Below, piece by piece: positions 1-8,531 of a DNA stretch of 64,000 nucleotides. The notes below the pieces were generated by a model. The model had not been told where the DNA came from. It saw nothing but the letters and a program-made list of their open reading frames with translations, and searched no databases. The translations under genes and the position numbers were made by a program. Position 1 is the first letter of the stretch. Each line of letters begins with the position of its first letter. Source of the DNA: Desulfobacteraceae bacterium (GTDB lineage Bacteria > Desulfobacterota > Desulfobacteria > Desulfobacterales > JAABSP01); contig JAABSP010000003.1 in the NCBI GenBank assembly GCA_011390345.1, forward strand, positions 1 through 64,000, read 5' to 3'.

Positions 1-1910
1 AGACCCTCTCTCCGGATGTGGTGATTCCGGGGGCCTATACGCTGGGGGGAAAGGCCTATATCGACAATTTCATCGAACAACTGATTCAGACCGCGCCCGA
101 TTCCGATGATCTGCTTGCCATGAAGCGGGCCTTTGACGAGGGATACCGTAAGGAGTATCTGGCGATCTGGGAGAACTTTGCCCAAAGCTTTGATCGGGGG
201 ATGGCGACCCTGCGGGGCCGAGAGGAGTGGGAGCGGACCATCGATCTCATCGCGACTGACCGGAACCCCTTCTTCCGTCTGCTCGATCTTCTCTACGAGC
301 AGGTAATTCCCGTCGCGCCCGAGGCCGCCATTCCGGAGTGGCTCGCCCTTTCCGACTATTTTCAGGAGATGCTCGCGTATGCGCCCGACGATATCGCGGA
401 TACTTCCCGAGGGAACAAGGCCCTATCCCGGCTCGGGCTCAACGCTCTGTCCAAGCTTGGTGAGATCGGCCGGACCGCATCCAGCACGGGCCGAAAAGCC
501 ATGATCACCCAGCGCCAAGTCGCATCGGACAGGAGTCCGGATGAGCGCAGACTGGTGCTGGAGGACGCAGGAAAAGCCCTGGGGGATTATCGCAGGGCAC
601 TGATGGACATCGCTTTCGATGCCCGGTCCCGTTCCGTCTCCTACAATGCGATGGCGCAATTCTTCAAAAATCCGGACCAGCCGACCGCGGGCGATACCCC
701 TCTTGCCAAAGCCTACACAGCAGTTCGCCAGTTGGAGGCGCTCATCGGCCGCTCCGGAGGCGATGCCCGGGCCTTCTGGGCCGTCTATGCGGGGCCCATC
801 GATGTGATTCGGGGCTATATGCTCAACGAGGCCGCGTGCCGGATTCAGGAACTCTGGGAGAACAAGTTTCTGGTCGAGATCGAAGGGGTTCCGGAATACC
901 GTAGAAACAGCCTGATGTTCGGCGACGAAGGCAAGCTCTGGACATTCATGGATAAACACGCAGGTCCCTTTGTCACCCGGGCTTACGGCAAGGGGTATGT
1001 CCCGGCCAGAGCCCGGGGCATGACCATTCCCTTCCAGCCCCAGTTTCTCGACTTCGTCTCCAGGGGAAGGGACAATATTCAGACCGCACAGGAATCCTAT
1101 TCGGTGCGGATCGAAGCTCTGCCTACGGACGCGAACCCCGATGCGGCCGAGATCCCCAGCGCGACGATCCTCCGCCTGGACTGCGGTGAAACGAGCCAGA
1201 CCCTCTACAACTACAACTTCACCATCGAAAAGACCTTCGAGTGGACATCACAGTGCGGGGATGCGCTCTTCTCGATGGAGGTGGGGGGCGTCACTTTGGA
1301 GAAACGGTATCCGGGCCCCAAGGGGTTTTCCGATTTTCTGAAGGATTTCCGGTTCGGGAACCGGCGCTTCACCCCGGCCGATTTTCCCGAGCAGGAGAAG
1401 AAGCTTTCGGAGATGGGCATCGAGTATCTGGATATTAAATACCGGATCGAGGGGCATGATGAGCTGATCCGGACCAAAGAGATTCTGCCAGCTGCGGTTC
1501 CCGGAACCATCGCAGTCTGCTGGCCCCCGCCGCCCCCGGACGCGCAGACAGGGCAGAGGCCAAAGCAACCCCCCAAAAGATCGGCCCGCGCCCGCTCCTC
1601 CGGGCAGGCATCGGTTTCCCGGGCAGAAGCAGAAAAGCGGGCATATTCCGTTCAGATCGCCTCGTTTCGCGAGGAATCCCGTGCCACTGATCTCGCCCGA
1701 AAACTCCGGGAGGAGGGATTTGATCCCGCGGTCTACTGGCTCAAGGACAAGCGGGACCGGATCTGGTATACGGTTCACCTGGGGCCCTATTCAGAAGATC
1801 GGAACACGGTGCAGGGACAGGCCGATCAGTACAACCGGGGACGGAAACGGCAATACGGCCCCCGCGGATTCGATCCGAATCTGCTGGAGGAGAGGAAGGT
1901 CGATTTTTGA
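1..1910 (+). CDS. tssM: TssM/IcmF-like T6SS membrane-complex protein, C-terminal part, with SPOR domain (5' end cut by window)
   Basis: The reading frame is open at the window edge (first whole codon at base 3), so the N-terminal membrane and cytoplasmic part lies outside. The motif VIPGAYTLGGKAYI near the edge resembles the PG-(F/Y)T-x-x-G(Y) motif that opens the conserved periplasmic region of TssM. About 480 residues of TssM-like sequence follow, then a Pro/Arg-rich linker (around 1520-1630), then a SPOR domain (about 1640-1885) starting YSVQIASF. TssM is the inner-membrane and periplasmic core of the T6SS trans-envelope complex; SPOR domains bind glycan strands stripped of stem peptides. 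A SPOR domain is not part of canonical TssM and would give the complex its own cell-wall anchor (inference). The stop codon overlaps the next gene by 4 nt, so the two are translationally coupled. The TssM call rests on motif memory and on the sheath gene next door. Confidence 0.75.
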   Translation, partial: TLSPDVVIPGAYTLGGKAYIDNFIEQLIQTAPDSDDLLAMKRAFDEGYRKEYLAIWENFAQSFDRGMATLRGREEWERTIDLIATDRNPFFRLLDLLYEQVIPVAPEAAIPEWLALSDYFQEMLAYAPDDIADTSRGNKALSRLGLNALSKLGEIGRTASSTGRKAMITQRQVASDRSPDERRLVLEDAGKALGDYRRALMDIAFDARSRSVSYNAMAQFFKNPDQPTAGDTPLAKAYTAVRQLEALIGRSGGDARAFWAVYAGPIDVIRGYMLNEAACRIQELWENKFLVEIEGVPEYRRNSLMFGDEGKLWTFMDKHAGPFVTRAYGKGYVPARARGMTIPFQPQFLDFVSRGRDNIQTAQESYSVRIEALPTDANPDAAEIPSATILRLDCGETSQTLYNYNFTIEKTFEWTSQCGDALFSMEVGGVTLEKRYPGPKGFSDFLKDFRFGNRRFTPADFPEQEKKLSEMGIEYLDIKYRIEGHDELIRTKEILPAAVPGTIAVCWPPPPPDAQTGQRPKQPPKRSARARSSGQASVSRAEAEKRAYSVQIASFREESRATDLARKLREEGFDPAVYWLKDKRDRIWYTVHLGPYSEDRNTVQGQADQYNRGRKRQYGPRGFDPNLLEERKVDF

Positions 1911-3655
1911 GTCCTGAAAGGATCCGCCTCACCTATGCCACAGATGAATCGGACGAGAACGAGATCCCCTTTCGCATCCTGATCATCGGGGATTTCACCC
2001 GGGCCGGGGATCGGCCAGAGCTGATCGAGCGCCAGCCTGTACCGGTCACGGCCAAAACCCTCGACGAGGTCATGGCACGGCTGGGGGTTAGGCTCAGGAT
2101 CGATCTTAGGGATCATCTATTTCCGGAAAAAGGGAAGGGGACAATATGCGCGGATCTGAAAATTGCCTCCCTCAGTGATTTTAAACCTGACGCGCTGGTC
2201 TCCGCGATTCCGGAAATGGCGCATCTGGTCAGTTTCAAGCATCGGATCGAGCGTTTGAAAAACGAGGCTGTCCGGGAATTCGATCCGGAAGTGCTGGATG
2301 AGAAGGAGCGGTCCATTTTCGACTTCCTATTTTCATCCCTTTCTCCGGAGGGCGAACCTGTGCCGGTTGAACGTCTCGATCTGCTGATCTCAGAAATTGT
2401 TCAGCGTCTCTCCCGGGGGATGGACGATCTGCTCCATCACCCCGATTTCGAAGCCCTGGCGTCTATCTGGCAGAGTCTCGATTTTTTGGTGAAGGGGCTC
2501 CGGCCGGATCAGAACTGTAGGATCGATCTCTTTGACGCATCCAGAGACGAGATCGAAGATGATTTCGAGGCGGCCGGGGAGATCTTCGATTCGGTTCTCT
2601 ACGGGCGGATCTATGTGGATGAGTTCGGCCAGTACGGCGGCAAGCCTTACGGGGTCATCCTCTCGGACTACGAGTTCGGCCCGGGTGATGCCGATATGCG
2701 GCTGCTGGCCCAATTCGGCCGCCTCGGCAATATCTGCCACGCCCCTTTTATAGCGGGCCTGCGGGAGGATTTCTTCGGGACCGACGATCTCTCGGAGCTG
2801 GCCTATTTCACCGATCTGCCCGAGCAGTTGGCCGAGAACCTGCGATACGTCAAGTGGCGCGCGTTTCGCGAGACCGACGATGCGCGTTATGTGGGGCTGG
2901 TTCTGCCGCGCTTTCTCCTCAGAAGCGCCTACGAGTTTCGAAAGGATGGCATCCGTTCCTTTCCTTACCGGGAGCGCCCCTATGCCCTCTGGGGAAACAG
3001 CGCGTTCGCGTTCGGAACCTGTCTGCTCAAAAGCTTTGCAAAGTACCGCTGGTGCCTCAACATCATCGGCCCGGACGGCGGCGCGGTCCAGGGGCTGCGC
3101 TGGTTGCAGGATACCGGATCAGCGCCCCGATCCGGAGCCCGGGAGCCGACCATCCCTACCCGGGTGCTGATCTCCGAAAAGAAGGAGGCACAGCTCGCCG
3201 GTGCTGGGCTGATTCCGCTGGTGCTCCACAGGAGCGACGACACGGCCGCCTTCTATTCGGCCTATTCGGTCAGGCGGCCCAAAACCGGATCATCGGCATT
3301 CCGGGAGCCGCAGCCCAACGAGATCATCGAAGCCCAGCTTCCCTACTCCTTTATCGTCTGCCGGTTTGCCCACTATATCAAGGCGATACAGAGAGACAAC
3401 ATCGGCGCCACAAAGACCCGCGTCGAGCTGGAGAAAGAACTCAACCGGTGGCTCATCCAGTATGTCTCGGACATGGACAATCCGGCGCCCGGGGTGAGGG
3501 CCCGGCGGCCTCTGCGCAAGGCCAAGATCGAAGTTTACGAGATCGACAGCGAAACCCAGAAGATCTGGTACAGGATGGAGTTGACCATCGTGCCCCACCT
3601 GCGATACATGGGCGCGGCCTTCTCCCTCACCCTCCAGGGGCGACTGGGCGATTGA
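1907..3655 (+). CDS. tssBC: TssB-TssC fusion, T6SS contractile sheath protein
   Basis: One 582-residue chain carries both sheath subunits. Residues 1-150 resemble TssB (VipA): RIRLTYATD, then PFRILIIGDFT, then LSDFKPDALVSAIPEM. From about residue 165 the chain is TssC (VipB): LLHHPDFEALASIWQSLDFL, WRAFRETDDARYVGLVLPRF, LWGNSAFAFGTCLLKSFA, RFAHYIKAIQRDNIGATK and a C-terminal VPHLRYMGAAFSLTLQGRL. In known T6SSs these are two separate genes whose products interlace to form the cytoplasmic sheath around the Hcp tube. The start is TTG at 1907, overlapping the upstream TGA by 4 nt, behind a strong GGAGGAGAGG Shine-Dalgarno at 1887-1896. The TssC part is about 415 residues, against roughly 490 in the usual protein. 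There is no internal stop or frame change, so this is a real fusion and not an assembly join, unless bases are wrong. Confidence 0.88.
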   Translation: MSPERIRLTYATDESDENEIPFRILIIGDFTRAGDRPELIERQPVPVTAKTLDEVMARLGVRLRIDLRDHLFPEKGKGTICADLKIASLSDFKPDALVSAIPEMAHLVSFKHRIERLKNEAVREFDPEVLDEKERSIFDFLFSSLSPEGEPVPVERLDLLISEIVQRLSRGMDDLLHHPDFEALASIWQSLDFLVKGLRPDQNCRIDLFDASRDEIEDDFEAAGEIFDSVLYGRIYVDEFGQYGGKPYGVILSDYEFGPGDADMRLLAQFGRLGNICHAPFIAGLREDFFGTDDLSELAYFTDLPEQLAENLRYVKWRAFRETDDARYVGLVLPRFLLRSAYEFRKDGIRSFPYRERPYALWGNSAFAFGTCLLKSFAKYRWCLNIIGPDGGAVQGLRWLQDTGSAPRSGAREPTIPTRVLISEKKEAQLAGAGLIPLVLHRSDDTAAFYSAYSVRRPKTGSSAFREPQPNEIIEAQLPYSFIVCRFAHYIKAIQRDNIGATKTRVELEKELNRWLIQYVSDMDNPAPGVRARRPLRKAKIEVYEIDSETQKIWYRMELTIVPHLRYMGAAFSLTLQGRLGD

Positions 3656-3659
3656 CCCG

Positions 3660-4586
3660 ATGGCGGTTTTTCGCAATTCCGAAGATCTGGGGCCTCCGGA
3701 TGCGGTGGCGATTCTCAGCGGCAAGGGAGGGACCGGTAAGACGAGCATCTCGGTCTCCTTGGGTTATCTGCTGGCCCGCTGCGGCTTCAAGACCCTGCTG
3801 GTGGATCTCGATCTCTTCACCCGGGGGATGACCTTCTATGCGCTGGGCGAGTATCCCCAGCGGGTGGAGACTTCCCTGGTCGATCTCTTTACGGAAAACG
3901 AGGCCCGGGAACGGAGCATCCGGCCTGTGCTGATTCCATCGGCCTTTACGGACGCGAATCTCTTTCTGCTGCCGAGCGTCGCGGAGGGAAGGGATTCCCC
4001 GGCCGATCTTCACCTGAGCCGGGATTTCTCTACTTTGGAGGGGTTTCGGGATCGACTGGAACGGATCATCGCCGGGGCAGTGGACTGGTACGGGTTCGAT
4101 TATGTCCTTATCGACACCCGGGGGGGAACCGATCATACGAGCATCGCTGCAGCCTATGCGGCCGGCAGCTTCATCCTGGTGACAGAGGCCGATAAGCCCT
4201 CCTGGGACATGGGGCGGACCCTGCTGGATGCAATGGACGCGGCCGGAAAAAACCGCGGGGGACAAGTACAGAACAGCGGGTTTATCATCAACAAGAGTGT
4301 TCTGCCGGCAAAGGCCGTTGGAGCCTATCTGCGCCGGGAGTGGGTGGCGCCCCATCTGGGGACGATCCCTTTGGACCAGGCCGTGATCCGCTGTTTTCAG
4401 CAGGATCGGGTTCCGGTGGCGGAAGATGTGAGCTGTCCCTTCAGCCGGGAGCTGGCAAAGATTCTTCGGAAGGGGTTTGTCACCCAAAACTGGACCGAGG
4501 GGAATCTTAAACGGCTGAAAAGGGTTTATGCTCCCGGCATTCTGCGCCTGCTTCGGCGGCTGGCCGGGGACGATGATGGGTTTTAG
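3660..4586 (+). CDS. MinD/ParA-family P-loop ATPase linked to the T6SS genes
   Basis: A 308-residue ATPase with the deviant Walker A motif SGKGGTGKTS (residues ~20-29) typical of MinD/ParA proteins, a VDLDLFTRG switch-like segment near residue 50, and Walker B-like YVLIDTRGG near residue 155. ATPases of this family dimerise on ATP and place cell machinery on membranes or nucleoids. It begins 4 nt after the tssBC stop with no clear ribosome-binding site of its own, so it is probably coupled to the sheath gene. No ParB, MinC or Tad-type partner is visible nearby. Its tight coupling suggests, by inference only, that it positions the secretion apparatus. It could instead be a BcsQ/CpaE-like protein of other function. 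It ends 40 bp before the convergent FlgO-like gene. Confidence 0.8.
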   Translation: MAVFRNSEDLGPPDAVAILSGKGGTGKTSISVSLGYLLARCGFKTLLVDLDLFTRGMTFYALGEYPQRVETSLVDLFTENEARERSIRPVLIPSAFTDANLFLLPSVAEGRDSPADLHLSRDFSTLEGFRDRLERIIAGAVDWYGFDYVLIDTRGGTDHTSIAAAYAAGSFILVTEADKPSWDMGRTLLDAMDAAGKNRGGQVQNSGFIINKSVLPAKAVGAYLRREWVAPHLGTIPLDQAVIRCFQQDRVPVAEDVSCPFSRELAKILRKGFVTQNWTEGNLKRLKRVYAPGILRLLRRLAGDDDGF

Positions 4587-5372: not shown

Positions 5373-8300
5373 ATGAGAATGAGAAAGTCTGTTTGCCATG
5401 CGTTTCTAATCCTGCTGACCATCCTCTTTTTTGCCTTAGCGGCGCTGGGGCAGGAGAACCAGCCTCCGACCGCTGACGCGGGGGCCGATCAGTCGGTTTC
5501 CGAGGACGAGACCGTAATGCTGGACGGGTCCGCCTCTTCGGACCCGGACGACGGGATTGCCGGCTTCTCCTGGCTTCAACTGGATGGACCCCAGGTGACG
5601 TTGTCGGATGCCACTGCAGTTCAGCCCACCTTTGATCCTGATGTGGGCATCGACGGGGAGACCTATGTCTTCCAACTGACGGTGACGGACCTCAACGGAG
5701 CGAAGAGTACCGATGAGACAACGGTGAATGTGGCCTGGGTGAATGAGCCGCCGAATGCCGATGCCGGGGTCGATCAGGTTGCGGCCGCGGGCATCGAGGT
5801 CACGCTGGATGGTTCCGGCTCTTCGGACCCGGACGACGGGATTGCCTCCTACTCCTGGTCCCAGATCGGGACCCCGGCAATCGCGCTCTCCGATTCCAGC
5901 GCGATCCGTCCCACATTTACGGTTCCGGAGAATACCGGCGGGGTCGATCTCACCTTTGAACTGACCGTGACCGATAATGGCGGGCTGACGGATCAGGACA
6001 AGGTGGTTGTGGAGATCACCATCATCAATCAGGAGCCCATCGCGGATGCGGGAGTTGACAGAACCGTTGCCGAGGGTGCTGCTGTAACGCTGGATGGTTC
6101 CGGCTCCTCAGACCCGGACGACGGGATCGCATCCTACTCCTGGCTGCAGACCGGGGGCGCGCAGGTGAGCCTTTCCGATGCCGGTGTGGTTCAGCCGACT
6201 TTTACCGCGCCCGAGGCCGGGGCCAGCAATATAATGATGCTGACCTTTCAATTGACGGTGACGGACAACAGCGGAAAGACCGACGCGGACAGCGTAACCA
6301 TCACGGTCTCCGGCGAGAACACGCCGCCTACAGCAGACGCGGGGGAGGACTTTACGGTCGCAGAAGGCGCGGAAGTGACCCTGGACGCCGCGGCCTCTTC
6401 GGACCCGGACGATGGAATTGCCGCCTATCTCTGGGAGCAGACCGGGGGAACCGAGGTGGAACTGTCGGACGGGACCGCGGACAGGCCGACCTTTACCGCG
6501 CCCGAGGTGGCGGCTGACGGCGCAGTCCTGACCTTCCAGCTCACCGTGACCGACACGGCCGGACAGACGGCTGTGGACGAGGTGACGGTGACGGTGGAAT
6601 GGGTTCCGGGAAGGCCCGTGGCCGATGCGGGCCCCGACCAGACCGTGGGGGAGAGCGTTGAGGTGACGCTCAACGGCTCCAACTCCGCAGATCCGGACGG
6701 CGATATCACCGGCTATCAGTGGCTCCAGACCGGCGGAACCTCGGTGGAACTGTCGGACCCCGCTGCCCCCCAACCGGTCTTCACCTCACCTGAAGTGGGC
6801 CCCGACGGCCAATCCCTGGTCTTCACCCTAACCGTTACAGACAGCGCAGAGCTGACCCACACGGACGAGACCATCGTAAACGTCTCTTGGAACAATACCG
6901 CGCCCGTGGCCAATGCGGGCCCTGACCAGGACGTTCAGGAGAATGTGCTGGTCTACCTGAACGGGACAAACTCCTCGGACCCGGACGACGGGATTGCCTA
7001 TTACCGATGGACCCAGACTGCAGGGCCCGTTGTGGCCCTGAGCGATGCGGAGACTGCGGTGGCCGGCTTCACCTCCCCGGATGTGAGCGATAGCGGTGCC
7101 TCCCTCACCTTTGTCCTGAGGGTGACGGACAACGGGGGGCTGCAGTCCAGCGATGATGCGATCGTCAATGTCTCCTGGCTCAACCGCCCTCCCGAAACGG
7201 ATGCGGGGGCCGATCAGACCTCGGCCGAGGGGGATGTCGTGACCCTGGACGGAAGCAACTCCTTTGATACGGATGACGGCATTTCAAGCTACCAGTGGCT
7301 CCAGACCGGTGGAACTCAGGTGACTCTGGCGGACCCGGCCGCGGTGAAGACTACTTTTACTGCCCCGGATGTGGGCACAGGTGGGGTGACACTACGCTTT
7401 CAACTGACAGTGACGGACAACGGTGGGCTTCAGGCCGCGGACCAGACTTTGGTCAATATCTCGTGGGACAACAAGCCGCCAGTCGCAGAGGCCGGAGCGG
7501 ACCAGGTTGCATATGAGGGGGTACGGGTGACCCTGGATGGCTCCGGCTCCTATGATTTAGACGACGGCATCGAGGGATACCGGTGGGCCCAACTCTCGGG
7601 AATCCCGGTTCAATTGAGTGATCCGCCTGCGGCACAGGCTGTATTTCTGACCCCGGATGTGGGCCCCGAGGGCGAGTCTCTGGTTTTCCGCCTCACGGTT
7701 ACAGACGCCGGAGGGCTTCAGGGAACTGACAAGACGACCATCAATGTCTCCTGGGTCAATGCCCCGCCCACCGCGGCGGCTGGCGGGGATCAGGAGGTCA
7801 GCGAAGGTGAGACGGTTCAACTCAATGGAACCGGCTCCACCGACCCGGACGGTGATATTCTCACCTATCGCTGGGAGCAGTCGGCCGGGCCTTTGGTGAC
7901 GCTGTCGAACCCGGCTGCGGCCGCCCCCTTCTTTGTGCCGCATCCGGTGAGGAACGGCGTTGTCGAATATGGTTTTTCCCTCACTGTGACAGATCTGAAG
8001 GGGCTCGCCGGAACCGATTCAATCACGGTTGCAGTATCTGACAACGGTATGGGGGGGTTTTCGGAGGATCTTTTGACCTTCCGGGCCGCGACCGGCGATT
8101 CCATGGCCATCCGGGCTGACGGTGGCGCGCTGATTCGCCTTTCGGCCAATTCGGCCAATTCGGCCAAAAACAGCGCAAACCGGCCCCTTGATATCCCCTA
8201 CGGCCTGATCGAGACCGAAATCCGGCTTCGAAACGGCGGAACCGCGACCACTGCCTTTGCTCTTCCGGGGCCGGCCCCGGAAGGGTATGAGTGGTTCCTC

Positions 8301-8531
8301 TATGATGGCGACAATGGATGGCGGAAATATCCGCACACCGTATTCAATGCGAATCGGGATGAGGTGGTACTCACCTTTGTTGACGGCGGGGCCGGCGATG
8401 GGGACGGCGAGGCCGACGGGACGATCACTGCCAAAACAGGTCTTGGCCTTCCGGACGTTGACGAAGGGGATGGCGGTGATGACGATGATGATACGGTCTG
8501 TTTCATCCGCGTCCTGTCCGCTTCTCCTTGA
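5373..8531 (+). CDS. Secreted protein with nine tandem PKD-like domains
   Basis: A 1052-residue exported protein. A Sec signal peptide (hydrophobic residues ~10-25, ending ALAALG) is followed by nine tandem domains of about 92 residues, each opening with a version of PPTADAGADQ and containing LDGSGSSDPDDGI-x-x-Y-x-W, the PKD/REJ-like Ig fold. The array covers residues ~30-885. The C-terminal 160 residues resemble the region called choice-of-anchor U (YGLIETEIRLRNGG, then EGYEWFLYDGDNGWRKY, then an Asp/Gly-rich stretch), and the protein ends in a Cys-Phe-Ile motif a few residues before the stop. PKD arrays usually act as extended spacers or adhesion stalks at the cell surface; no catalytic domain is visible. 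Adjacent repeats are similar at the DNA level too, which favours recombination between them. Confidence 0.85.
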   Translation: MRMRKSVCHAFLILLTILFFALAALGQENQPPTADAGADQSVSEDETVMLDGSASSDPDDGIAGFSWLQLDGPQVTLSDATAVQPTFDPDVGIDGETYVFQLTVTDLNGAKSTDETTVNVAWVNEPPNADAGVDQVAAAGIEVTLDGSGSSDPDDGIASYSWSQIGTPAIALSDSSAIRPTFTVPENTGGVDLTFELTVTDNGGLTDQDKVVVEITIINQEPIADAGVDRTVAEGAAVTLDGSGSSDPDDGIASYSWLQTGGAQVSLSDAGVVQPTFTAPEAGASNIMMLTFQLTVTDNSGKTDADSVTITVSGENTPPTADAGEDFTVAEGAEVTLDAAASSDPDDGIAAYLWEQTGGTEVELSDGTADRPTFTAPEVAADGAVLTFQLTVTDTAGQTAVDEVTVTVEWVPGRPVADAGPDQTVGESVEVTLNGSNSADPDGDITGYQWLQTGGTSVELSDPAAPQPVFTSPEVGPDGQSLVFTLTVTDSAELTHTDETIVNVSWNNTAPVANAGPDQDVQENVLVYLNGTNSSDPDDGIAYYRWTQTAGPVVALSDAETAVAGFTSPDVSDSGASLTFVLRVTDNGGLQSSDDAIVNVSWLNRPPETDAGADQTSAEGDVVTLDGSNSFDTDDGISSYQWLQTGGTQVTLADPAAVKTTFTAPDVGTGGVTLRFQLTVTDNGGLQAADQTLVNISWDNKPPVAEAGADQVAYEGVRVTLDGSGSYDLDDGIEGYRWAQLSGIPVQLSDPPAAQAVFLTPDVGPEGESLVFRLTVTDAGGLQGTDKTTINVSWVNAPPTAAAGGDQEVSEGETVQLNGTGSTDPDGDILTYRWEQSAGPLVTLSNPAAAAPFFVPHPVRNGVVEYGFSLTVTDLKGLAGTDSITVAVSDNGMGGFSEDLLTFRAATGDSMAIRADGGALIRLSANSANSAKNSANRPLDIPYGLIETEIRLRNGGTATTAFALPGPAPEGYEWFLYDGDNGWRKYPHTVFNANRDEVVLTFVDGGAGDGDGEADGTITAKTGLGLPDVDEGDGGDDDDDTVCFIRVLSASP
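8141..8167 (+). repeat. Three perfect copies of a 9-bp unit inside the PKD gene
   Basis: TTCGGCCAA occurs three times head to tail (8141-8149, 8150-8158, 8159-8167) and is in frame, encoding a Ser-Ala-Asn repeat in the linker after the last PKD domain. A unit divisible by three changes linker length without breaking the frame. Confidence 0.9.

Follow-up and report, generated by a model that had tools for sequence, protein, structure and literature searches.

A single-chain TssB-TssC sheath paralogue accompanying separate tssB and tssC genes in a type VI secretion cluster of a Desulfobacteraceae bacterium

INTRODUCTION

In known sheaths of the type VI secretion system (T6SS), each disc donates the N-terminal strand of TssB and the C-terminal strand of TssC to the disc beneath it, where they extend a two-stranded sheet close to the C-terminus of TssC; a similar sheet is presented by TssE in the baseplate (PMC5924787). 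In E. coli, ClpV binds the N-terminal helix of TssC and removal of this helix abolishes binding (PMC5048182); in some systems TagJ, acting via TssB, aids the contact between ClpV and the sheath (PMC10433429). Natural TssB-TssC fusions have been described already: the roseobacter TssCL proteins, reported in 2022, are encoded in clusters that also possess separate tssB and tssC genes, can be as long as 1684 aa and have two VipA domains and one VipB domain (PMC9515649). Agrobacterium has two non-redundant TssC homologues, TssC40 and TssC41, in one T6SS (PMC3702570).

We analysed a 64 000-nucleotide stretch of DNA (contig JAABSP010000003.1, positions 1 to 64 000; hereafter the window) in which a sequence-only reading had noticed a TssB-TssC fusion. 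That reading took TssB and TssC to be separate proteins in every known T6SS, which is contradicted by TssCL. The fusion of the window shares its fold, domain content and interlocking domain with canonical TssB/TssC (VipA/VipB), but it is one chain, is devoid of the TssC N-terminal ClpV helix and is an accessory to a normal pair. It coexists with separate tssB and tssC genes, as TssCL does, whereas the domain plan of TssCL, VipA-(VipA)-VipB without VipB_2, is not that of the window protein, which has VipB_2. The window type is an independent and differently built variant, and no report of it was found in the open-licence literature searched. The Agrobacterium proteins are set apart by their description as TssC homologues, in which a fused TssB part is unmentioned (PMC3702570). 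Sheaths of phages and of extracellular contractile injection systems (eCIS) also have one chain per protomer, with a sequence identity to the fusion of only ~6-11%; there the single chain is the main sheath protein, whereas in the window it is an extra beside TssB and TssC.

RESULTS

A TssB-TssC fusion directly after tssM

The features of the window that are needed below are the following.

1..144 (no strand): stretch shared with the end of contig C40, tssM being in the same frame on both
3..1910, + strand: C-terminal half of tssM, ending in an additional SPOR domain (residues 546-598, about 1638-1796)
1907..3655, + strand: tssBC, single-chain TssB-TssC sheath paralogue, 582 codons
1913..2269, + strand: TssB (VipA) part, residues 3-121 (Pfam), opening with the N-terminal strand segment ERIRLTYA
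2270..2365, + strand: variable junction, residues 122-153, replacing the TssB tail and the ClpV-binding TssC helix
2384..3271, + strand: TssC (VipB) core, residues 160-455 (Pfam)
3314..3646, + strand: VipB_2 gp25-like interlocking ('handshake') domain, residues 470-580 (Pfam)
3467-3526, + strand: best conserved 20-residue block of the fusion family, residues 521-540, within VipB_2
3660..4586, + strand: MinD/ParA-like ATPase directly downstream of tssBC

The tssBC frame runs from a TTG at 1907, which shares bases with the TGA stop of tssM (1908-1910), to a stop ending at 3655, and its translation has no internal stop; the succession of TssB and TssC in one unbroken chain was thus correctly read from the sequence. 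Profiles of both families match the product. Pfam identifies T6SS_VipA at residues 3-121 (7.2e-22, 78 bits; cut-off of PF05591, 24), VipB at residues 160-455 (4.1e-87) and VipB_2 at residues 470-580 (1.3e-34). With the NCBIfam TssC model TIGR03355, positions 47-472 of 473 are aligned at 432.9 bits, above the cut-off of 271.5; with the TssB model TIGR03358, positions 9-130 of 160 give 77.7 bits, below the equivalog cut-off of 97.25. Together with the predicted sheath fold (see below), these matches place tssBC in the TssB/TssC superfamily. The TssC part is indeed short, as had been remarked, because the first ~46 profile positions (the N-terminal helix region) are absent; the remainder of TssC is complete. 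The best conserved block, VSDMDNP...RRPLR in VipB_2, is conserved at 64% among the fusions of this type and at 71% in canonical TssC. The TssB half is divergent (~31% within the family).

Separate sheath genes in the same cluster

The window opens at the first base of its contig (C126), inside tssM. Over 144 bases, the end of C40 and the beginning of the window agree at 142 positions. A search of the genome with full-length TssM returned only two pieces, at the end of C40 and at the start of the window, with complementary coverage. Judging from this overlap and from the division of the sole tssM across both contigs, C40 and the window are adjacent in the genome, apart from a small chance that the assembly mixes strains. 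On C40 the gene order is tssB, tssC, clpV, two hcp, tssJ, tssK, tssL and the first half of tssM; further upstream lie a tssA-like gene, vgrG, tssF, tssG and a third hcp. The separate tssB (165 aa; TIGR03358, 165 bits) and tssC (TIGR03355, 649 bits) are both intact and adjoin clpV ~13 kb upstream of tssBC, in the same cluster. This tssC retains the ClpV helix and the clpV is full. The sequence-only reading had proposed that this T6SS builds its sheath from the single chain; it had itself named separate tssB and tssC genes in the cluster as grounds for refutation, and their presence via the tssM joint refutes the proposal on genomic grounds, provided that the canonical pair is expressed. The product of tssBC is almost certainly an accessory and not the main sheath.

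Several other properties of the region were observed. The SPOR (peptidoglycan-binding) domain lies at the end of TssM here (1638-1796), whereas the TssM proteins of genomes G047 and G389 stop before that region. The three hcp genes of the T6SS region in this genome are at L006 1531-2049, L006 2065-2700 and L116 18541-19014; the product of the second is extended at its N-terminus by ~40 residues rich in Arg. The MinD/ParA-like ATPase follows the fusion in two of the six loci described below, the window (3660-4586) and that of G047 (L040 3029-3901; 48% identity between the two), and had no match in the other four loci read. Positions 5373-8531 of the window encode a 1052-aa protein with nine PKD-type repeats and a choice-of-anchor U domain at its end.

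Predicted fold and absence of the ClpV-docking helix

The fused chain is predicted to fold as a complete TssB:TssC protomer. An AlphaFold2 model computed from a 63-row alignment reached a pLDDT of 90.8 and a pTM of 0.91 (an 18-row alignment gave a pLDDT of 61), and structure prediction thus agrees with a sheath-like protomer. Compared with solved TssC chains, the model has TM-scores of 0.80-0.89 (target-normalised), the nearest being the Myxococcus extended TssC (0.89, rmsd 3.0). Phage and eCIS single-chain sheaths (T4, AFP and PVC; Foldseek) match it more weakly.

An HMM was built from 78 N-termini of canonical TssC. None of the six window-type fusions matched this ClpV-docking region (≤0.2 bits), while canonical TssC proteins, most of which had contributed to the HMM, scored 58-86 bits and nine TssCL-type proteins scored 1-8 bits at the expected place. 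The N-terminal helix bound by ClpV, which characterizes canonical TssC, is missing from tssBC. The earlier suggestion that the ClpV-docking end is altered therefore stands as far as the TssC N-terminus is concerned; the helix is absent, rather than just joined to TssB as had been supposed. The fusion very probably does not dock ClpV by the known route. In practice it would probably be blind to ClpV, but since TagJ offers a route through TssB, loss of the TssC helix need not equal full blindness.

Distribution of the window-type fusion

Genomes were scanned at the level of the order (389 genomes, with the TssB family), the class (again 389 genomes, largely those of the order, searched with a fusion-specific N-terminal alignment) and the phylum (395 genomes). 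For a gammaproteobacterial relative, its order (13 genomes) and its class (369) were also scanned. The window-type fusion is rare, since these scans led to only five: those of the window, G047, G389 (a gammaproteobacterial MAG, JALUUH010000053), G406 and G767. The canonical TssC proteins of the fusion genomes grouped with one extra sequence, from G528; its locus was checked because of this grouping, and a sixth fusion was found there, directly after tssM. A search of the small orders around G528 and G767 yielded no additional window-type fusion. A sequencing error at the junction, which had been raised as an alternative, is not the explanation, since the same fusion is present in five other genomes. 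A locus of Thiomargarita (L004), considered as a candidate, was rejected because it encodes an ordinary separate TssC.

The fusion lies directly after tssM in all six genomes, and all six have canonical tssB and tssC. In G389, G406 and G528 they share a contig with the fusion, and in the window genome the tssM joint connects them to it. The fusion's contig in G047 includes the canonical tssC and stops at that point, tssB genes being located on other contigs; G767 has tssB-tssC-clpV on a contig other than that of the fusion. The survey of clpV that had been suggested alongside found a true clpV in five of the six genomes. In G528, only ClpB- and ClpA-like matches were obtained: its cluster has no clpV, and nothing in the genome passes the curated cut-off for ClpV. 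ClpV blindness cannot therefore be the whole purpose of the fusion there. The locus itself (L114) is a T6SS cluster with a canonical tssC and a fusion but no clpV. In four of the six loci, the window not being one of them, hcp and the baseplate genes tssE, tssF and tssG come directly after the fusion, and this downstream hcp is a second, distinct hcp gene.

Phylogeny and rate of change

In a tree of 57 rows, the six fusions form one clade (SH-aLRT 96) and their six canonical TssC partners another (95). The tree was made by a quick method and has long branches, there are six members, and the fusions themselves had in part led to the clade. Both clades pair G389 with G406 and G767 with G528, and the remaining branching is compatible. 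For the same genome pairs, identities are 31-47% between fusions and 58-77% between partner TssC proteins (r 0.82). The other five fusions are 35-42% identical to that of the window, and each fusion is 41-53% identical to its own partner TssC over the core. By these comparisons, the fusion travels with its cluster and evolves faster than the main sheath protein; the difference between the two ranges of identity indicates that it is constrained differently.

TssCL-type and other fusions

The scans also uncovered fusions of another type. Shorter proteins (~520 aa), with the TssC N-terminus and without VipB_2, are present in many genomes of the order, with canonical tssB and tssC in their clusters wherever enough sequence was read. 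One of them is 32-34% identical over ~94% of its length to a long sheath protein of the roseobacter TssCL kind, and occupies the same place after clpV. The TssCL-type proteins examined differ from the window type in having no VipB_2, and their genes follow clpV and are close to vgrG. In the window's order they retain an LLDQI-type helix core. TssCL-type and window-type fusions come out apart in the tree, and their grouping in one clade was rejected (AU p 0.008).

TssCL-type loci include L041 10441-12006, L042 13199-14770, L044 11982-13556, L048 1988-3541, L049 and L050, among others, as well as L128 5776-7713. These fusions extend beyond the Alphaproteobacteria, to which they had been confined (PMC9515649), and one is on a betaproteobacterial plasmid. 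Three plasmid matches that looked like one-piece fusions by tblastn (H42, H44 and H45) were rejected, because tssB and tssC are distinct genes in them. TssB-TssC-like proteins of a third group (~525 aa), which is very divergent, were noticed at L051 8507-10078, L052 4500-6086 and L053 8630-10297; in L051 and L052 they are near genes resembling FHA and PP2C phosphatase genes.

DISCUSSION

How could such a protein act beside a normal sheath? The cluster's separate TssB and TssC would supply the main sheath, which ClpV would recycle via the TssC N-terminal helix. With its complete predicted fold, its free TssB N-terminal strand and its intact TssC C-terminal interlocking domain, the fused protomer should be able to join the beta-strand mesh of that sheath, and we consider the chances of actual co-assembly with canonical TssB/TssC to be evenly balanced. 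Having no docking helix, it would be left in place by ClpV and would form a minority ring whose position in the tail is fixed. This whole reading, an accessory single-chain subunit that forms a ring in a canonical tail and is not extracted by ClpV, is our preferred one and about an even bet. Where the ring would sit is more doubtful. As a first guess we tentatively favour the baseplate end, perhaps indicated by the location of the gene between tssM and the hcp/baseplate genes in four of the six loci; counting against this, the other two loci, including the window, have the MinD-like ATPase next instead of baseplate genes. The weak conservation of the TssB N-strand in the fusions (28% versus 71%) was also considered as proof of the baseplate-end position and dropped: the hydrophobic pattern is kept and the stretch includes variable linker.

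Among the other explanations, the one that survives best, although we consider it unlikely, is that the fusion polymerises alone into a second, ClpV-independent (single-use) sheath, perhaps around the second Hcp, while sharing the baseplate and membrane complex with the canonical sheath. All elements of the mesh are kept, the model resembles single-chain phage sheaths, and the second, distinct hcp lies directly downstream in four of the six loci; in the window genome, however, the second hcp type is with tssF/tssG and not by the fusion. Moreover, the fusion diverges faster than canonical TssC, unlike a protein bound by every self-contact of a long polymer, and it is always a single extra gene within one canonical cluster.

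It is similarly improbable that the fusion is a distal cap or assembly-control factor, which caps or halts sheath growth or passes between the membrane complex and the sheath, instead of being a ring of the contracting tail. The constant adjacency to tssM, the divergence of the TssB half and the existence of extra non-redundant sheath paralogues, i.e. roseobacter TssCL and Agrobacterium TssC40 (PMC9515649, PMC3702570), would suit such a factor, but the fusion has a well conserved interlocking domain as well as both strand-donating ends, a combination that a cap would not require.

A decaying, functionless duplicate would also diverge faster than its canonical counterpart, as the fusion does; the open frame at the same position in six well separated genomes, the conserved interlocking-domain motif and the confident predicted fold make this very unlikely. 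That this T6SS builds its sheath from the fusion, with a fixed 1:1 stoichiometry and altered recycling, agrees with the lack of another tssB/tssC among the window ORFs examined, but is hardly tenable: this cluster has intact separate tssB, tssC and clpV, and each of the other five fusion genomes also has tssB and tssC as distinct genes.

If the fusion is a minority ring in a canonical tail, the T6SS tail could be a mixed polymer: recyclable TssB/TssC would form the majority of rings, and ClpV-blind one-piece protomers would form one defined ring or segment that remains on the baseplate after firing and seeds the next sheath. We regard this extension as improbable. The usual view of a T6SS sheath is that of a uniform polymer in which one TssB:TssC pair is repeated. 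A specialised position in some sheaths is suggested by an extra protomer that is conserved, has kept the mesh domain, has lost the ClpV handle and is co-inherited with its canonical partner across distant bacteria. Two independent fusions have come to opposite designs, the window type with the mesh domain and no ClpV helix, and the TssCL type with no mesh domain and, in the window's order, a helix core, so that the role of each feature is directly testable.
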